Source: a virus. From it: a DNA stretch of 59,908 bases. The stretch lies in IMG/VR virus record IMGVR_UViG_3300027773_000007, positions 1 to 59,908 of that record. The stretch is one strand, 5' to 3'. The number at the start of each line of letters is the position of its first letter. Position 1 is the stretch's first letter. The notes below the pieces were generated by a model that saw only the letters and a list, made by a program, of their open reading frames with translations, was not told where the DNA came from and made no database searches. Below, one piece after another: positions 49,401 through 56,351 of this stretch. Both the position numbers and the translations under genes were made by a program.

Positions 49401-49834
49401 GCGAGGAACTGTACCTCAAATTCATGGCGCAGGCCTTGCCGGCGATCGAGAAGGCACGAGCGGCGGGCAAAACCCCGTCCGACATTTTCGACCCCAATAG
49501 CCCGAACTATATCGGCAAGTCGATCGCCGCGTTCAAACGGCCGATGTCGCAGTGGACATCGGATCTGTTGAACGAGAACGCGCCCGGCGGGGCCGCTTCG
49601 GCGGCCGATATCGACACCCCGCAGGCGCTCGCCGCCGCGTTCCAGGCCGGCCACATCACGCGCGATCAGGCGCAGGCGATTGCTCTCGCGCACGGTTGGA
49701 TCGCTGCCCCGGCGACGAAACCGCCCGCACCGGCATCGGCGACCGCCCCACCCGAGCAGCCTGGCACGTTCTATTCGCGCGGTGAGACACCCGAACAGCA
49801 GCTCAACCGGATCGGCGCCGAGAGCGTCCGCTGA
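46487..49834 (+). CDS. Multi-enzyme internal virion (ejection) protein
   Basis: 1115 residues. After an ejection-protein N-terminus come a transglycosylase-like segment (about 285-400: PSLAVGTARLESDLGRNLGP, FQLGPDEW), an SGNH-hydrolase-like segment (about 460-605: LAFGDSIA; SPGTSNNPA; KDGIHPAE), and an L,D-transpeptidase/Tlde1-like segment (about 615-720: PPGNYPITPG, ELHAGSSDELITKGCVAI with His and Cys). A helical C-terminal half follows. In-frame repeats (GPSTGS) lie at 47274-47294 and 47763-47783, flanking the first enzymatic segment. Probably opens peptidoglycan and modifies wall components during DNA entry. Confidence 0.75.
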   Translation: MARVVYQGAPDVRPAAPAPVFYRPDMPRLDVVGAAMQRAGGEIQAGGNAMAEAAIQIQQLHNETSAENAAVDWSEKANDLLYGENGLFAKTGADFLRARPQVMQQLDELWRQSGASLGNEQAQNFFARSTNYQRVAFSRAIGRAAAEAVRTNALDTSTAAIVSALRSVSNQYNDPGYLDSQFQTIGRQMQRLSDLGDKRYVGHDPVGLGATAAIQGAMAREDWATANTLLQQYGPHIDPAQRDALERGIHEKLVDAEATRAVFGPSTGSAPAGAPSGPVAQTIADRAQRLNIDPSLAVGTARLESDLGRNLGPRGNIFQLGPDEWRKAGGGDMADRGTQIDNGLRWLAQTKSELGAALGREPTNAEVYLAHQQGVPGAVALLNAPPGTPAGKVVLPENIRANGGDPNAPASTFVDLWRERYERAALGPSTGSGGGGIGAGTEPAAAPAAPPKFDLAFGDSIAVQQIRHGVGGKEGQRGRALAQQRGATAVIGDTPAMVLARLQATPPEQFKGRTIFLSPGTSNNPAQVAIVGQELDLLQKAGARAVVPGVGPGVPNRDAVNAQLRQLAEAHGAVFFEPNIRWQKDGIHPAEVDKLREQAIAALGRQAATTPRQPPAHIGGTIDVEGRHYQWGSGGEKGAAPIPPGNYPITPGAVGPWGRAHGAIGVNNNFIYDPRLGRARVGIELHAGSSDELITKGCVAIAGNQWPTFKAQVEDMIHRYGTVYLHVGDNGEASITPAAALAGKPGAETRATGIPAAANAPAQRPSDEQVPSLSDKIAELTRKIQDPQVLAKAIDLARVNYAAHWADQEHARQLHEQQLHDASQARANEIIADLSSGHPTLTAAQIGSDPALLPDTRRALLDMYQRFAVKQSGSDVAEATQTYGPAFWSLYKRVTAPPGDPTRITDQAEIMRHAGPGGDLTLKGVDALSKIIAGRGTPEAAAWTEMERQFFRTAHGEISGADDGLHIKDPRGEELYLKFMAQALPAIEKARAAGKTPSDIFDPNSPNYIGKSIAAFKRPMSQWTSDLLNENAPGGAASAADIDTPQALAAAFQAGHITRDQAQAIALAHGWIAAPATKPPAPASATAPPEQPGTFYSRGETPEQQLNRIGAESVR
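47274..47783 (+). repeat. Direct repeats flanking the transglycosylase segment
   Basis: Two 21-base copies (TCGGCCCTTCGACAGGCTCAG) at 47274-47294 and 47763-47783 are identical. Their offset is 489 bases, exactly 163 codons, so recombination between them would remove or duplicate the segment without shifting the frame. Confidence 0.9.
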
Positions 49835-52800
49835 TGCCCGACGCACCCTTCCGGAGCCTCGACGACCTGCTCGCCAAGGCTGGGCCGCAGAACGCGCCGC
49901 CCTCCACAGGCGCAAGCTCGCCGCCGTTCAAGAGCCTCGACGACCTGCTCGCGCACGCCAACGCCCCGAGCGATTCGCTGTGGGCGCGCGCAGGCGGCGC
50001 GCTCGATCATTATTTCCAGACCGGCGTCAGCGCCGCCGGGCGCGTGCTCTCCGCCTTCGGGCAAGGCTACGGGCAGGGATGGGGCTCGGAACCGCTCGGC
50101 CTGTCGCCGGACAGCGAGGCATGGCTCAAGAAGACCGGCATCTTCAACGACTATCGGAGCGGCCAGGCGAGCCTCGTCCGCTCGTTCAACGAGGCGTTGA
50201 TCCGACCGGCGGCGACGGCGATCGATGTCGTCAACCGCGCGATCCAGGGCGCTTTCCGCGGCGCCCAAGGCGCGGCCGAACAGACCGCGCTCGAAGCCGG
50301 CGCGCCGCCGACCCTGGCGCGCGACATCGCGGCGTTGCCGGAAGCGCTGCTGCCCGAGGCGCCGCACCTGCCGCACGCCCTCAGCCCACGCGAGATCGGT
50401 GCGGCGCGCGATCTCGGCGTCATCGGCAAGGGTGAACACGGATGGGATGGCACAGCGGCAGAGGAAAAGCCGCCCCCGGCCACAGGAGAACCAGCAGAGG
50501 CGCACGCCGCAGCGATCGCCGACGCGACGAAATCCACCGCCGAGGAGCAGCCGCCGGCCGGGACCGAACCGGACAAGACCATCTCGGAAGAGCCCAATGT
50601 CGGCGCGCGCGAAACCGAGCCCGAACCCGACATTCACACTATCGCCCGCCAGATCGCGCCCGACACGTTCAGGGAGTACGACGCGCTTGCCGCGCGCAAA
50701 GAGACCTTCCGGCGCTGGCTCGGCGATCTCGCCGAGGTGCGGCGCCGCGATGCCGAGGCGAACGCGCCGCACACCGCCGAGATCGCCGACCTTGATCGGC
50801 AGATCGCCCGCGAGCGGCAGCGCTTGGAAGGCACCAATCCGCGCCGCACGAAGATCTACCAGGCGCGCATCGACGATCTCGAAAAGCAGCGCGCGCCGCT
50901 CGCCGAGACGCGCGAGGAGGCGATCGCCGCGGCGACGAGCCGCGACACCCCGGACATGCAGCGCGTGCGCCAAGCGCTGATGCAGACCGATTACCGGATG
51001 CGCGATCTGGCGGTCGATGTCTCGGCTGCCTACCGCGAGGCCGCGACGCGGATGCCGCAGCCGTGGCCGGAAATCGCGCCGTCCAGCCCCACCGCCGCGG
51101 CGCCGACAGCCGAGGCAACCGCGGCCGCCGTCCAACAGCCCGAACCAGCAATCGCGCCCCCTGCGCCTCCGGAAGCGATTTCCGGGCAAACGCAGGCCGA
51201 GCTGCCGCTGGAACACCCCGAGCCGCCGATGATCGTCGCGCCGCCGGAGGCGCAAACGGCCGAGCCAAAACCGGAAGGCGGCAAGCCGGCTCTGCAAGAG
51301 AAGAAGCCGCTACCGCCCGGCGGCATCGCCAGCGACGTGGCGCGGCAACTCGTCGCCGCCGGACGCCCGCAGGACGAGGCCACCGCCGCCGGACAACTCG
51401 TCGCCGCCTATTACGAGACGCGCGCCGCGCGCTTTGCCGGCCGGCTCGGCACGCCGGAAGATCTCTATGCCCGCGATGCGCCGCGCATCGTCGCCGGCCG
51501 CGGGGCCTCAAAACGGGCGATGGAGTATGCCCAGGGCGTGCCCGGCCCGGAGCCAATACCCATCGGCGAGGGTGAGGCGCGCTATGTCGAGCGCGGCGGC
51601 GAGCGTTTCGTCGCCCGCGCCGACGGCTCCGATACCCTGGGCGAGATCACTCCGGATATAGCCGCTGCGGTAGGCCGCGATGCGGCACCGATCCGGCTGC
51701 CGGAAGGCAATGATGCCTATGGCGAGCGGCACATCGAAGCGCGCCACGGCACCCAGATCCGGACCGCCGGATACAGAGATGCCGCCGAACTCGTCGCAGA
51801 TGTCGCCAATGGCTTTGCCGAAATATATCAGGCACGCGATGGCCGGCTACTGTTGGCGAAGCCAAACGGGCGGGTGCGGATTGCTGTCGTCGAGCTGCGT
51901 CCGTCAGCGGACGGCTCTCATTGGACCGTCACCACGGCGGGGCTGTATCGCCCGAGCTACTTCCGCAATCAAGAACTGCTCTGGAGGCGTCCGGGTCCAG
52001 GCGCCTCGCCGCTGGAGGGCGGTTCTCCCTTTAATTCCCCAGGGAGCCAGAGCAGCGCACCGCTTCAGAGACAACCGGGCCCAGATGTCTCCTCGCCGTC
52101 AGGCGAGTCTCCCTTCGACCCAGGGAGCCAAAGCAGCAACTCAAATATAGGACCGGAAGACGAGCTCGAGCAAGCCCAACGCGGCAAAATCCGGCTCGCG
52201 ACGAAGCAGGCCCGCGCCACCATCACCCTCCTTGAGCATGCCGACGCTTCGACCTTCATTCACGAGACCGGACATGCATGGCTCGAAAACCTCGTCGCCG
52301 ACGCCGCGCACCCGCTCGCCCCGCAATCGCTCAAGGACGATGCCGAGACGGTGCGCAAGTGGCTCGGCACAAAGCCGGACGGCTACATCACCACGCGCAT
52401 GCATGAGCGCTTCGCCCGCGGCTTCGAGCAATACATGAGGGAGGGCCGCGCCCCCAGCCAAGCGCTTGCCAGAGTATTCGCGCAGTTCCGTCAATGGCTC
52501 ACGGCGATCTATCAGAGCGCCAGGCAGCTCGGCCGGCCGATCACCGACGACATCCGCGGCGTGTTCGACCGCATGCTGTCGCACGAGCCGGGACGGACTA
52601 TAATCGCACGCGAGGAAGAGCCGCCGCGCACTTTGGCCGACACGCACGAGGCCGCGGCCGCGCGCACGTTGCCGACGCATGCGGCGCAGGTCGCCGAGCA
52701 GGTGCGCGCCGAGACCGAAGAGCGCACCGCGCCGGAGGTAAAGGATGAGATCGCCGCACGAGGAATTGGCGCACCAGGAGAAGGAGTTGGCGGAGGCGCG

Positions 52801-55800
52801 CCGCCGGGTGAACCATCTGATCGTCATGGGCCTGCGCCCGAACCTGTCGCCGGAACTGCGGGCGCACGTGAAGGAGCAGGAGCGCTCCTACCGGGCGGAG
52901 GCGAGGTTGCGCCGCAAGGCCATCGCGCATCTGAAACAGCAGCTCGCCGATCCCCGGAGATAACGCCCTACGAGCGCGTGCCGCGCCAGCCGCTGCGCCT
53001 CGTCGCGTGGCTGAAACAGCAGGGCGGCGTGCGCGACGAAGGCGGCGACGTGCGCGCGATTATCGGCGGCGCCAGGGGCCGCATCGGGCTCGTCAACCGC
53101 AACGGCCTGCCGCTCGACGAGGCGGCGCTCCGGGCGTGGGAAGAAGGCTACCTGCCCGAATACGCCGAGCGCCCGGACATCCAATCGCTGCTCGATGCGA
53201 TCGAAGAGGACCTGAAACAGCGCCCGCGCTATTCCGAGCACGACCGCGCCGCCGCCGCCGAATACGAGCGGGCGCTGGCCCAGAACGAGGAGATCGACCG
53301 CCTCGCCCAGGAGCGCGGCGTCGATCCGCGCGGCCTCTCGCGCGAACAGTTCTTCGACGCGATCGCCGACAGGGTCGGCCTGGAAGCGGCCGAGACGATG
53401 GCCGAGCGGCTCGCCATCCGGCACGAGAGCGCGCTTGCCGAGGCCGATCGGGCGGCGCAGCATTGGGCCGAGGAGCACGGTCGCGAGTGGCGCCCGGAAC
53501 TCGAATACGGCACGCCGCAGAGCCTTGAGGACATCGAGAATGCCGATCGACGAGGAGCAGCTCTTGGAAGGCCGCGAGCGGGCGCTGGCGGCGCTGGGCG
53601 ATCCGGACCTGCCGCAGCCGGTGAGGCTCCTATACAAGAAGGCGCTCGACCAGGCGGAGGCGGCGCTGGGGCTCGCCGCGGCGGCGCAACGGCAGAAGAG
53701 CCGCCGCCCCAGCCCCGCGCGATCACAGATCGCGCGGGGACCCCAGACGGACCAAACGACTTCTTCCCCGATGCCAAAGGGACCATTGGGGGACGCAGCG
53801 AGTTCGTAGACAAGGCCGGCAACATCCGGCTCGATCTGCTCGGCACGCCCGAGTCGGTCAACGAGGCGATCCGCGACGCGGCCGACGAGAACGACGCGTT
53901 CGTCGCCGAGCGCCGCGGCGTCGTCTCGGACGCGCAGGTGCTCGCTCTCGCCGACGCGCTCGGCATGGACGCGGCGAAGCTGAACCGGCGCCGGATCGGC
54001 GAGGCCTTCAACGCCGAGCAGGTCGTGGCCGCGCGCAAACTCTTGATCCAATCGGCGACAGCGGTGCGCGACGCGATGGCCCGCGCCGCCTTCGGCAGCG
54101 AGGAAGACGTGCTGCGCTATGCCGAGGCGAAGGCGCGGCATCGTATGATCCAGGGACAGGTGGCCGGGATCACCGCCGAGGCCGGGCGGGCGCTCAGGGC
54201 GTTCCGCGCGTTCAAGGGCGCGCGCGACGAGCCGCTTGAGCAGTTCCTCGAGACCGCGACCGGGCGGACCTTGTTCCAGATGCGCCGGGAGGCGCAGCTC
54301 GGCCTCGAGCTCGACACCCCGGCGCAGGTCTCGAAATTCGTCGCCGACAGCGACAAGACCGGCCTGTTCGATTGGCTGCAGAGCTTCTTCGTCAACGCGC
54401 TGATCTCGGGCCCGGCGACGCACGGCACCTATGCCGTCGCCAACGCGCTGTTCAGCCTGTGGAAGGGCACGGCCGAGCGCGGCGCTGCGGCGATCGTCGG
54501 CGAGCTGCGCGGCCTCTTGGGCGATGCGGCGGCCGACCGCGTGCGCTTCGGCGAAGTGCCGGCCGGGCTCTACGGCTTCATGCGCGGCTATGCGCGCGAC
54601 GGCTGGAAAGCTGCCTGGCGGGCGTTCAAATCGAACGAGACGCAGCTTCTGCCGGGCGAGGAGATGGCGGCGAAGCCGTTCCGCACCCGCGTCATCCCGG
54701 GCATTGCCGGCACGGTCCTCGAATCGCCCGGGCGGCTGATCAATGCCATCCATGCGCTGTCGCGCACCGCCGGCTACACCCGCAGCATCGCGGCGCAGGC
54801 GTACCGGACCGCCGCCGAGGAAGGGCGCGCCGGCGACGATCTCGCCGCCCGCATCCGCGCGCTGACGGTCGACCCGACCGAAGACATGATGCGGCGGGCG
54901 ATCGCCGAGGCCGGCGAGGACGCGATGATGCAGAAGGCGCCCTACGGCAGCCTGCGCCAGCGCTTCGCCTCGCTGGTCGACGCCGGCGTCGCCCTGCCCG
55001 ACGTGCCGCTGCCGGGCGGCCGCACGCTGCCGCTCGGCACCTTGCGCCCGTTGCGCTTCGTCGATCCGTTCGTGACGATCACCGCCAACATCATGGACAG
55101 CGCCCTTGTCGAGCGCACCCCGGTCGGGCTGTTGTCGCCGCGCATCCGCGACGATCTGCTGGGCCGCAACGGCGGCGCGGCGCAGGATCTCGCGGCCGGG
55201 CGCATGATCGCCGGCTCGGCGTTGATGCTCTTGGGCGGCAGTCTCGCGGCCGAGGGGCTGTTGACCGGCTCGCCGCCTTCCGACCCGCGCGAGGCCTCGG
55301 TCAAGTATCTGACCGGCTGGCAGCCCTATTCGGTGCGCATCGGCGACATATACTATCAGATCCATCGGCTCGGCGTGCTCGGCATCGGGCTCGGCATCGC
55401 CGCCGATCTGTGGGACGTCGCCGGCTACGCCGCAAAGGGCGACCTCGCCAACACCGCGGCGATGGCGGTGCACGCGGTCGCGCGCAACATCCTCGACGAG
55501 AGCTTTCTGCGCGGGCCGTCCGAGCTGCTCGGCGCGATCGAGGAGCCGACGCAGCACGGCGAGAGTTGGGCCAAGGGCTTCTTTTCGTCCTTCGTGCCGT
55601 TCTCGGTCGGCCTGTCGCAGACCGCGCGCACGCTCGATCCCTATATGCGGCAGACGCGCAGCGTGCTCGACGCGATCAAGGCCAAGATCCCGTTCGTCTC
55701 GGAGACCCTGCCGCCGCGCTACGATATCTGGGGCCAGCCGATCCCGAACCGGCAGGCGCTGGTTCCCGAGGTGACGGCGCTCTATGAGAGCCGCATCAAC

Positions 55801-56148
55801 ACCGATCCGGCAAACCAGGCGCTGCTGCGGCTCGGCGTCTTTCCCGCGCAACTGCCGCGCAAGATCCGCGGCGTCGCGCTGTCCGACGAGCAATATGACC
55901 TCTTTTCCCGCACCGCCGGCCGCATGGCGAAGATGCGGGTCGATGCGATCGTGCGTATGCCCGGCTTCGCGATGCTCCCGGCCGGCGTGCAGCACGACAT
56001 GCTGACGAGCGCCATCCGCGGCGCCCGCGAGACGGCGCGCAGCCTGGTGATGATGCGCTATCCCGACATTGTCCGCGCCGCGCTCGCGGCCAAGCGGGCG
56101 CAGCTTCTCGGGCCACAGGCGGCCTCGGGAGCGGCCGCTCTCCACTGA
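49834..56148 (+). CDS. Giant ejection/internal virion protein with PBECR nuclease and metallopeptidase motifs
   Basis: 2104 residues. The N-terminus repeats a short motif (PFRSLDDLLAKAG; PFKSLDDLLAHAN). Residues about 624-717 (EGNDAYGERHIEARHGTQIR, then GLYRPSYFRN) resemble a phage Barnase-EndoU-ColicinE5/D-RelE (PBECR) nuclease. Around residue 808, DASTFIHETGHAWLENL is a zinc-metallopeptidase helix. The C-terminal 650 residues are mostly helical with hydrophobic patches (MLLGGSLAAEGLL), as in gp16-like ejection proteins. Two linkers carry nested genes (52745-52963, 53540-53809); there the giant frame reads Gly/Ala/Pro-rich low-complexity sequence. Confidence 0.78.
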   Translation: MPDAPFRSLDDLLAKAGPQNAPPSTGASSPPFKSLDDLLAHANAPSDSLWARAGGALDHYFQTGVSAAGRVLSAFGQGYGQGWGSEPLGLSPDSEAWLKKTGIFNDYRSGQASLVRSFNEALIRPAATAIDVVNRAIQGAFRGAQGAAEQTALEAGAPPTLARDIAALPEALLPEAPHLPHALSPREIGAARDLGVIGKGEHGWDGTAAEEKPPPATGEPAEAHAAAIADATKSTAEEQPPAGTEPDKTISEEPNVGARETEPEPDIHTIARQIAPDTFREYDALAARKETFRRWLGDLAEVRRRDAEANAPHTAEIADLDRQIARERQRLEGTNPRRTKIYQARIDDLEKQRAPLAETREEAIAAATSRDTPDMQRVRQALMQTDYRMRDLAVDVSAAYREAATRMPQPWPEIAPSSPTAAAPTAEATAAAVQQPEPAIAPPAPPEAISGQTQAELPLEHPEPPMIVAPPEAQTAEPKPEGGKPALQEKKPLPPGGIASDVARQLVAAGRPQDEATAAGQLVAAYYETRAARFAGRLGTPEDLYARDAPRIVAGRGASKRAMEYAQGVPGPEPIPIGEGEARYVERGGERFVARADGSDTLGEITPDIAAAVGRDAAPIRLPEGNDAYGERHIEARHGTQIRTAGYRDAAELVADVANGFAEIYQARDGRLLLAKPNGRVRIAVVELRPSADGSHWTVTTAGLYRPSYFRNQELLWRRPGPGASPLEGGSPFNSPGSQSSAPLQRQPGPDVSSPSGESPFDPGSQSSNSNIGPEDELEQAQRGKIRLATKQARATITLLEHADASTFIHETGHAWLENLVADAAHPLAPQSLKDDAETVRKWLGTKPDGYITTRMHERFARGFEQYMREGRAPSQALARVFAQFRQWLTAIYQSARQLGRPITDDIRGVFDRMLSHEPGRTIIAREEEPPRTLADTHEAAAARTLPTHAAQVAEQVRAETEERTAPEVKDEIAARGIGAPGEGVGGGAPPGEPSDRHGPAPEPVAGTAGAREGAGALLPGGGEVAPQGHRASETAARRSPEITPYERVPRQPLRLVAWLKQQGGVRDEGGDVRAIIGGARGRIGLVNRNGLPLDEAALRAWEEGYLPEYAERPDIQSLLDAIEEDLKQRPRYSEHDRAAAAEYERALAQNEEIDRLAQERGVDPRGLSREQFFDAIADRVGLEAAETMAERLAIRHESALAEADRAAQHWAEEHGREWRPELEYGTPQSLEDIENADRRGAALGRPRAGAGGAGRSGPAAAGEAPIQEGARPGGGGAGARRGGATAEEPPPQPRAITDRAGTPDGPNDFFPDAKGTIGGRSEFVDKAGNIRLDLLGTPESVNEAIRDAADENDAFVAERRGVVSDAQVLALADALGMDAAKLNRRRIGEAFNAEQVVAARKLLIQSATAVRDAMARAAFGSEEDVLRYAEAKARHRMIQGQVAGITAEAGRALRAFRAFKGARDEPLEQFLETATGRTLFQMRREAQLGLELDTPAQVSKFVADSDKTGLFDWLQSFFVNALISGPATHGTYAVANALFSLWKGTAERGAAAIVGELRGLLGDAAADRVRFGEVPAGLYGFMRGYARDGWKAAWRAFKSNETQLLPGEEMAAKPFRTRVIPGIAGTVLESPGRLINAIHALSRTAGYTRSIAAQAYRTAAEEGRAGDDLAARIRALTVDPTEDMMRRAIAEAGEDAMMQKAPYGSLRQRFASLVDAGVALPDVPLPGGRTLPLGTLRPLRFVDPFVTITANIMDSALVERTPVGLLSPRIRDDLLGRNGGAAQDLAAGRMIAGSALMLLGGSLAAEGLLTGSPPSDPREASVKYLTGWQPYSVRIGDIYYQIHRLGVLGIGLGIAADLWDVAGYAAKGDLANTAAMAVHAVARNILDESFLRGPSELLGAIEEPTQHGESWAKGFFSSFVPFSVGLSQTARTLDPYMRQTRSVLDAIKAKIPFVSETLPPRYDIWGQPIPNRQALVPEVTALYESRINTDPANQALLRLGVFPAQLPRKIRGVALSDEQYDLFSRTAGRMAKMRVDAIVRMPGFAMLPAGVQHDMLTSAIRGARETARSLVMMRYPDIVRAALAAKRAQLLGPQAASGAAALH
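52000..52140 (+). repeat. Tandem linker repeat in the giant gene
   Basis: Two copies of a unit of about 65 bases encode RPGPGASPLEGGSPFNSPGS and QPGPDVSSPSGESPFDPGSQ, both ending SPFxxPGSQSS. It lies between the PBECR and metallopeptidase regions and is slightly less GC-rich, suggesting a flexible hinge grown by duplication. Confidence 0.7.
52745..52963 (+). CDS. Nested gene 1 inside the giant ORF (+1 frame)
   Basis: 72 residues (HEELAHQEKELAEARRRVNH, then LSPELRAHVKEQERSYRAEA), a strongly coding-like charged coiled coil. A near-perfect ribosome site, GGAGGT, lies five bases before ATG 52745. Over the same bases the giant frame reads GAPGEGVGGGAPPGEP, typical of non-selected high-GC sequence. 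So this frame is probably the selected one. Role unknown, perhaps a chaperone or partner of the giant protein. Confidence 0.7.
   Translation: MRSPHEELAHQEKELAEARRRVNHLIVMGLRPNLSPELRAHVKEQERSYRAEARLRRKAIAHLKQQLADPRR
53540..53809 (+). CDS. Nested gene 2 inside the giant ORF (+1 frame)
   Basis: 89 residues. IDEEQLLEGRERALAALGDP, then LPQPVRLLYKKALDQAEAAL looks coding, while the giant frame here reads RPRAGAGGAGRSGPAAAGEA. A GAGG ribosome site lies about 10 bases upstream of ATG 53540. The last third is Ser/Pro-rich and covers a palindromic repeat (53713-53739). It uses the same alternative frame as nested gene 1. Confidence 0.6.
   Translation: MPIDEEQLLEGRERALAALGDPDLPQPVRLLYKKALDQAEAALGLAAAAQRQKSRRPSPARSQIARGPQTDQTTSSPMPKGPLGDAASS
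53713..53739. repeat. Palindromic element in the giant gene
   Basis: CCCCGCGCGATC (53713-53724) and GATCGCGCGGGG (53728-53739) form a perfect 12-base stem with a three-base loop. The flanks CCCCAG and GACCCC equal those of the element at 12742-12780. Both overlapping frames remain open across it. Confidence 0.85.
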
Positions 56149-56351
56149 TGCCGCAACCATCCGCGCCGCCAATCCCGGCTTTCCCCGCGGATCAAGTCCG
56201 TGGGCTGAAGGCCCACGGGAGGCGGCCGACAACGAAAACGCCGCCGCCGTCCCGCGCGCCGCTGCACCGGCGGGTGCGCGACACGGCCGAGCCGCACCTC
56301 GCCCGGCACGAGTTGCGCGCCGTCCCGGCAGAAGAACCGCCTAAGCCGTAA
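56148..56351 (+). CDS. Small protein built largely from a palindromic repeat
   Basis: 67 residues (TGATG coupling). Residues about 12-25 (PADQVRGLKAHGR) come from a host-type palindromic repeat at 56184-56218. The rest is basic and proline-rich (RAPLHRRVRDTAEPHLARHE). It may be a degenerate gene. It lies before the second spike gene. Confidence 0.45.
   Translation: MPQPSAPPIPAFPADQVRGLKAHGRRPTTKTPPPSRAPLHRRVRDTAEPHLARHELRAVPAEEPPKP
56184..56218. repeat. Double palindromic repeat
   Basis: CCCGCGGA (56184-56191) pairs with TCCGTGGG (56197-56204) with one G-U, and CCGTGGGC (56198-56205) alternatively pairs with GCCCACGG (56211-56218). The form CCGCGGATCAAGTCCGTGGGC is a common interspersed repeat of alphaproteobacterial chromosomes. 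Confidence 0.65.

Follow-up and report, generated by a model that had tools for sequence, protein, structure and literature searches.

Can one stretch of phage DNA encode two proteins in different frames, and if so, which of the two does selection maintain? The question is raised by the IMG/VR virus record IMGVR_UViG_3300027773_000007, which was analysed over 59,908 bases (hereafter the window) and in which a giant gene for a putative ejection protein, with regions designated Z, M and C, contains two short open reading frames (ORFs) in its +1 frame, nested genes A and B (Table 1). An earlier, sequence-only reading of the window had proposed that both frames are used, or else that the giant frame is merely open by chance; the coordinates, lengths and +1 frame that it assigned to the ORFs, and the GGAGGT that it placed five bases ahead of the first ATG, were all correct when the sequence was re-read, and the Gly/Ala/Pro-rich giant-frame reading at both ORFs was borne out as well. 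Our analyses support the first proposal: codon-substitution analysis, codon phase, start-site conservation and homologues together indicate that both frames are almost certainly coding.

Single-sequence scans with both nested proteins returned nothing in viral contigs or cultured phages because these proteins are too divergent, and the C domain of the giant was used as a route instead. The viral-contig loci collected in this way grew from two to 31 and then to 80, joined by four genome loci, and Z (with its HExxH motif), M and C were mapped in these relatives by tblastn. A hidden Markov model (HMM) seeded from the first four nested proteins then matched nested ORFs in the +1 frame of almost every Z-bearing relative. 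Z and C were joined in one ORF in 47 non-duplicate loci, and a nested +1 ORF was found in 45 of these by HMM and in the other two, L062 (with a TTG start) and L070, by inspection; HExxH was present in 47/47 loci checked. The HMM search revealed no nested ORF in any of the 37 C-bearing loci without Z, and within the same locus set it matched neither the minus strand nor the +2 frame. A later scan added three Z+C loci (L127, L143 and L156), all three with a nested ORF, which brings the total to 50/50 (48 by nested-gene HMMs, two by eye); its remaining loci were without Z and without a significant nested-gene match. Neither the linker nor a nested homologue was found in the cultured Z-bearing phages BPP-1, CP2, Jess A, PfDIW6, Ab9, HU1 and Vibrio 1.185.O.

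The genomes hosting these loci include Rhizobium sp. BK313, Paramagnetospirillum kuznetsovii and metagenome-assembled genomes labelled Alpha- and Betaproteobacteria. An indel visible in raw reads, which the sequence-only reading had named as grounds for abandoning its proposal, is excluded as an artefact by independent assemblies, isolate-genome records among them. Two pairs of loci (L028/L043 and L036/L045) point to bacterial hosts, IMG/VR records 2824979408 and 2838797410 matching loci in the Rhizobium sp. BK313 and P. kuznetsovii genomes. Prophages of sequenced isolates offer a testable system.

The pattern of substitutions identifies the nested frame as the constrained one. The test was based on 14 disjoint, well-aligned pairs, a looser choice of pairs having been dropped for poor alignments. 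Differences at giant third positions amounted to 0.507 in Z, 0.512 in C and 0.243 in the nested region, and frame-blind nucleotide alignments gave 0.47-0.48 in Z and C vs 0.26 in the nested region. Purifying selection acts on the nested frame (NN/NS = 0.58, bootstrap confidence interval 0.51-0.67), and the giant linker is under no amino-acid constraint, free except for stops (NN/SN over the nested region = 0.97, 0.83-1.13). Synonymous-site conservation restricted to the giant frame, which would have spoken against nested genes, is the opposite of this result. Furthermore, when slot-A genes (those behind Z) were scored with a leave-one-out HMM against 100 synonymous-codon reshufflings of the giant frame, 42/42 lay above all reshufflings, with a mean of 62.8 vs 1.2 bits.

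Codon phase leads to the same frame. GC at giant codon positions 1/2/3 was.655/.438/.694 in Z,.643/.465/.698 in C and.788/.659/.469 in the nested regions, the last being the coding signature of the other two displaced by one base. Along the giant of the window, the GC codon phase flipped only in windows over the two nested ORFs, and in relatives with GC above 50% flipped windows made up 189/226 inside nested genes vs 187/7709 outside. The codon usage of the genome was better matched by the nested than by the giant frame in 44 of 51 genes.

It is scarcely credible that only the giant is a gene, with high GC leaving the +1 frame open by chance, for although openness of that frame is by itself unconvincing, given that the giant's protein and composition would leave the two window ORFs open with P ~0.73 and ~0.83, the nested protein is conserved, giant synonymous changes are suppressed, codon phase is flipped and the Shine-Dalgarno (SD) sequences are strong. 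Equally hard to believe is a constraint on the nucleic acid, such as an RNA structure or packaging signal, in place of a second protein, since the constraint tracks nested codon positions (the nested third position being the most variable in the 14 pairs), the nested translation is confidently predicted to fold as a hairpin and the starts carry SDs.

The converse, that the giant is not read through and its open frame is an accident spanning several separate genes, gains something from the better nested codon usage and from the lack of amino-acid constraint on the linker. It is nonetheless very improbable: Z, M and C lie in one unstopped frame in all genomes examined, the AT-richer L002 included, and the giant frame is unstopped over every listed nested ORF, as it is in all Z+C loci that were checked later. 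When the nested proteins are taken as given, the probabilities of an open giant frame multiply to a product of P ~1e-39 over 26 nested genes, an overestimate in that relatedness was left uncorrected, and the suggestion that this frame is merely open by chance was rejected. The related suggestion that separate genes became fused over small ones is possible as history, as the codon usage indicates, yet an unfused ancestor or intermediate was looked for among the relatives and not found. Two histories fit: a small gene may have been bridged when Z and C fused in another frame, which we favour because of the codon usage and because it is the nested product that is ordered; alternatively, a small gene may have arisen in an unconstrained linker.

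Start sites bear on whether the nested frame yields a protein of its own. Starts were picked without regard to SD and compared with a control of 2095 +1-frame ATGs from the same giants; mean SD energy was -5.8 at nested starts vs -2.5 at control ATGs (p = 4e-13), so that the proposed ribosome sites, GGAGGT for A and the weaker TGAGG for B, belong to a set far above control across relatives. The slot-A start lies directly behind Z, often as CCGGAGGT...ATG, where the giant frame reads PEV, and CCGGAG[GA]T likewise precedes the ATG of nested A in L001, L002, L012, L015 and L039. The slot-B start lies within the giant's EDLEN, and its SD position is occupied by GGAGGA in L020, L026 and L033; in the window, gene B also has an alternative, longer TTG start at 53435. 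A programmed frameshift at the beginning of the linker would instead produce a Z-domain protein with a hairpin tail, and GGAGGT could stimulate such a slip into the nested frame, which is +1 of the giant. This is very improbable: every one of the 51 curated nested genes has a start codon (48 ATG, 2 GTG, 1 TTG), SD spacing suits initiation, and no common slippery motif was apparent by eye, no systematic slippery-site search having been made. Upstream of slot-A starts, the nested frame extends no further than about six codons before a stop in half of the genes (median 6.5), and in five it is closed directly, at 0 codons, which argues against a frameshift product. Independent initiation of the nested genes is thus very likely on the sequence evidence.

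The nested proteins are 60-131 amino acids (aa) long, with a median of 79. Nested A is predicted to form a helical hairpin (AlphaFold2, 21 homologues; predicted local distance difference test 96.0, predicted template modelling score 0.80), and nested B a hairpin in the first ~54 residues with a disordered tail behind it. Longer forms of nested A (e.g. L015, L022, L039 and L043) have a common C-terminal motif behind the hairpin, DPxLxxLLG, which is perhaps a short binding motif. Pfam, PHROGs and PDB searches with the nested proteins returned scattered weak matches only and no family, and no earlier description of these nested genes was found in the literature; as far as their sequences tell, they constitute a new protein family. 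A nested spanin of the Rz1 type was considered and judged unfit, the N-termini being charged or Pro/Lys-rich, with no lipoprotein signal or hydrophobic segment (read from the sequence, without a predictor).

The setting of the giant suggests where these proteins might act. PHROGs matches were obtained with phrog_9880 at giant aa 781-916 (E 1.9e-53) and with phrog_6651, 'internal virion protein', at aa 1783-1971 (E 5.3e-23), and the C domain of L043 resembles 'internal virion protein D' records of marine podoviruses by tblastn. Upstream of the giant lie a portal-type head-tail adaptor, tail proteins and an endolysin/transglycosylase-like gene, and downstream a tail fibre. This neighbourhood, which also includes ejection genes, is a T7-type ejection-protein setting and places the giant in a portal-tail-internal virion cassette; the giant is probably a protein injected into the host.

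We consider it likely, overall, that the nested genes are real, that the giant is translated through them and that the hairpins are partners of the ejection core. The nested ORFs would be translated in the +1 frame by internal initiation on the mRNA of the giant, at ribosome-binding sites of their own, and the giant frame would also be translated straight through. The helical-hairpin protein would be the product under selection, and the Gly/Ala/Pro-rich giant linker the out-of-frame reading of its gene, kept stop-free so that Z, M and C remain on one chain. Made together with the giant, the hairpins would act as small partners assembling or ejecting the internal core, in the manner of T7 gp6.7. 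Taken by itself, this last role as ejection-core partners is tentative and argued from analogy.

The nested proteins might instead be real and act outside the virion, in host takeover, regulation of giant translation or lysis timing, a possibility to be taken seriously. Small nested phage genes elsewhere, such as phiX174 E and lambda Rz1, have roles of this kind, and the virion location of the present proteins is itself only inferred. What speaks for a partner of the giant is the ejection-gene setting and the fact that each nested gene is strictly tied to one giant domain, A to Z and B to M.

Several points weigh against the explanation that we prefer. All of the evidence for dual coding comes from sequence evolution, and all of that for function from location and fold class. 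The substitution test is a pairwise count with no phylogenetic model, and it includes only ~10 sites synonymous in both frames. The resemblance between A and B is weak (hhalign probability 4%), and the gene B set is a small sample of nine curated sequences plus L156. A PHROG search of 21 nested members gave no family common to more than one of them, and Foldseek with the hairpin returned many matches, none with E < 0.001, which were judged uninformative, hairpins being common.

A further question is whether the nested genes travel with the giant's domains. Gene A sits in the linker behind Z and curated gene B behind M, and a coding-phase +1 ORF lies directly behind M in 13 of the 14 M-bearing Z+C genomes, the exception being L066. 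In L044, L048, L058 and L059, M is upstream of Z and still has a +1 ORF behind it, so the M-plus-nested unit is present at a second place in the giant. Extra phase-flipped ORFs elsewhere in the giants numbered 20, all in +1 and none in +2. Those in other linkers (L057 2765-2914; L023 8060-8167; L084 8015-8200; L056 5882-6166; L050 5267-5470) may be additional nested genes; a single case of significant similarity was seen among the extra ORFs, which are therefore leads, not proof. It is quite conceivable, if somewhat short of an even chance, that the giant is built of domain cassettes, each domain bringing its own small overprinted gene that moves with it and encodes a hairpin as its dedicated partner. 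If true, the 'low-complexity' linkers of multi-domain phage giants would conceal a further tier of small genes that annotation has missed.

Table 1. Positions of the giant gene, its domains, the nested genes and their ribosome-binding sites (window coordinates unless a locus is named)
Feature	Position	Strand	Basis
Giant gene, 2104 aa, T7-type internal virion/ejection protein with Z, M and C domains (predicted)	49834..56148	+	ORF, PHROGs, gene context
Z region of giant, zincin-like, HExxH; ends at start of nested gene A	52054..52743	+	tblastn map
SD GGAGGT of nested gene A, 5 bases before ATG; giant reads Pro-Glu-Val	52734..52739	+	
Nested gene A, 72 aa, +1 frame of giant, ATG start, predicted alpha-hairpin	52745..52963	+	
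M domain of giant, giant-frame reading	52969..53538	+	HMM match; giant-frame codon phase back here
SD-like TGAGG of nested gene B, weaker, 9 bases before ATG; giant reads Leu-Glu-Asp	53526..53530	+	
Nested gene B, 89 aa, +1 frame of giant, ATG start, predicted helical hairpin and disordered tail	53540..53809	+	
C domain of giant (EFVDKAGNIR...); starts at end of nested gene B	53800..56145	+	conserved; locus searches
Helical-type coding-phase +1 ORF behind Z-upstream M	L044 7985-8179		
Helical-type coding-phase +1 ORF behind Z-upstream M	L048 7316-7456		
Helical-type coding-phase +1 ORF behind Z-upstream M	L058 7484-7648		
Helical-type coding-phase +1 ORF behind Z-upstream M	L059 902-1078		

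Nested out-of-frame phage genes are well known from phiX174 (E in D, B in A) and lambda (Rz1 in Rz). As there, a small same-strand gene with its own start lies wholly inside another in a different frame; here, in contrast, conservation lies with the nested frame, the host frame is a neutral linker of a giant ejection protein, and a giant can carry as many as two nested genes, which are tied to domains. In Bacillus subtilis, comS lies inside srfA, likewise a small out-of-frame gene within the gene for a giant modular protein, but comS is a single bacterial regulatory gene, whereas the present genes form a diverse phage family at domain linkers. T7-type gp16/internal virion protein D is matched by the giant's C domain (phrog_6651, marine podovirus records), but the described proteins are without the Z-linker-C architecture, and the Z-less relatives and cultured Z-bearing phages checked are without the nested gene. 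The functional parallel that we propose is T7 gp6.7, a small protein of 88 residues that works with the gp14/gp15/gp16 ejection core; it belongs to the core, connects portal, gp14 and gp15, and is itself ejected (PMC11784390). Unlike the nested genes it is a separate gene, and no sequence relation was found in the PHROG search, no direct comparison having been made.

Since conservation falls on the nested frame and the arrangement recurs in 50/50 relatives, standard annotation misses a protein family. The case represents deep, replicated overprinting (50 genomes, two nested gene types) with the hierarchy reversed, in that the small embedded gene is conserved and the large frame passes through. 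Gene callers would overlook this whole family in environmental phages, its Gly/Ala/Pro linkers being misread as low-complexity filler, and a codon-phase flip inside long genes offers a simple rule for searching.

Three minor observations concern the giant and its surroundings. A 67-aa ORF without a PHROG match (window 56148-56351) has its ATG overlapping the giant's stop codon. On the minus strand, an open frame of 1114 aa (window 52888-56232) runs opposite the giant and is likely a shadow of GC-rich codon bias and no gene. In L001 (42-10499), the giant reaches 3485 aa, with methyltransferase- and SNF2-helicase-like sequence (DarB-like, by eye) fused upstream of the ejection domains.

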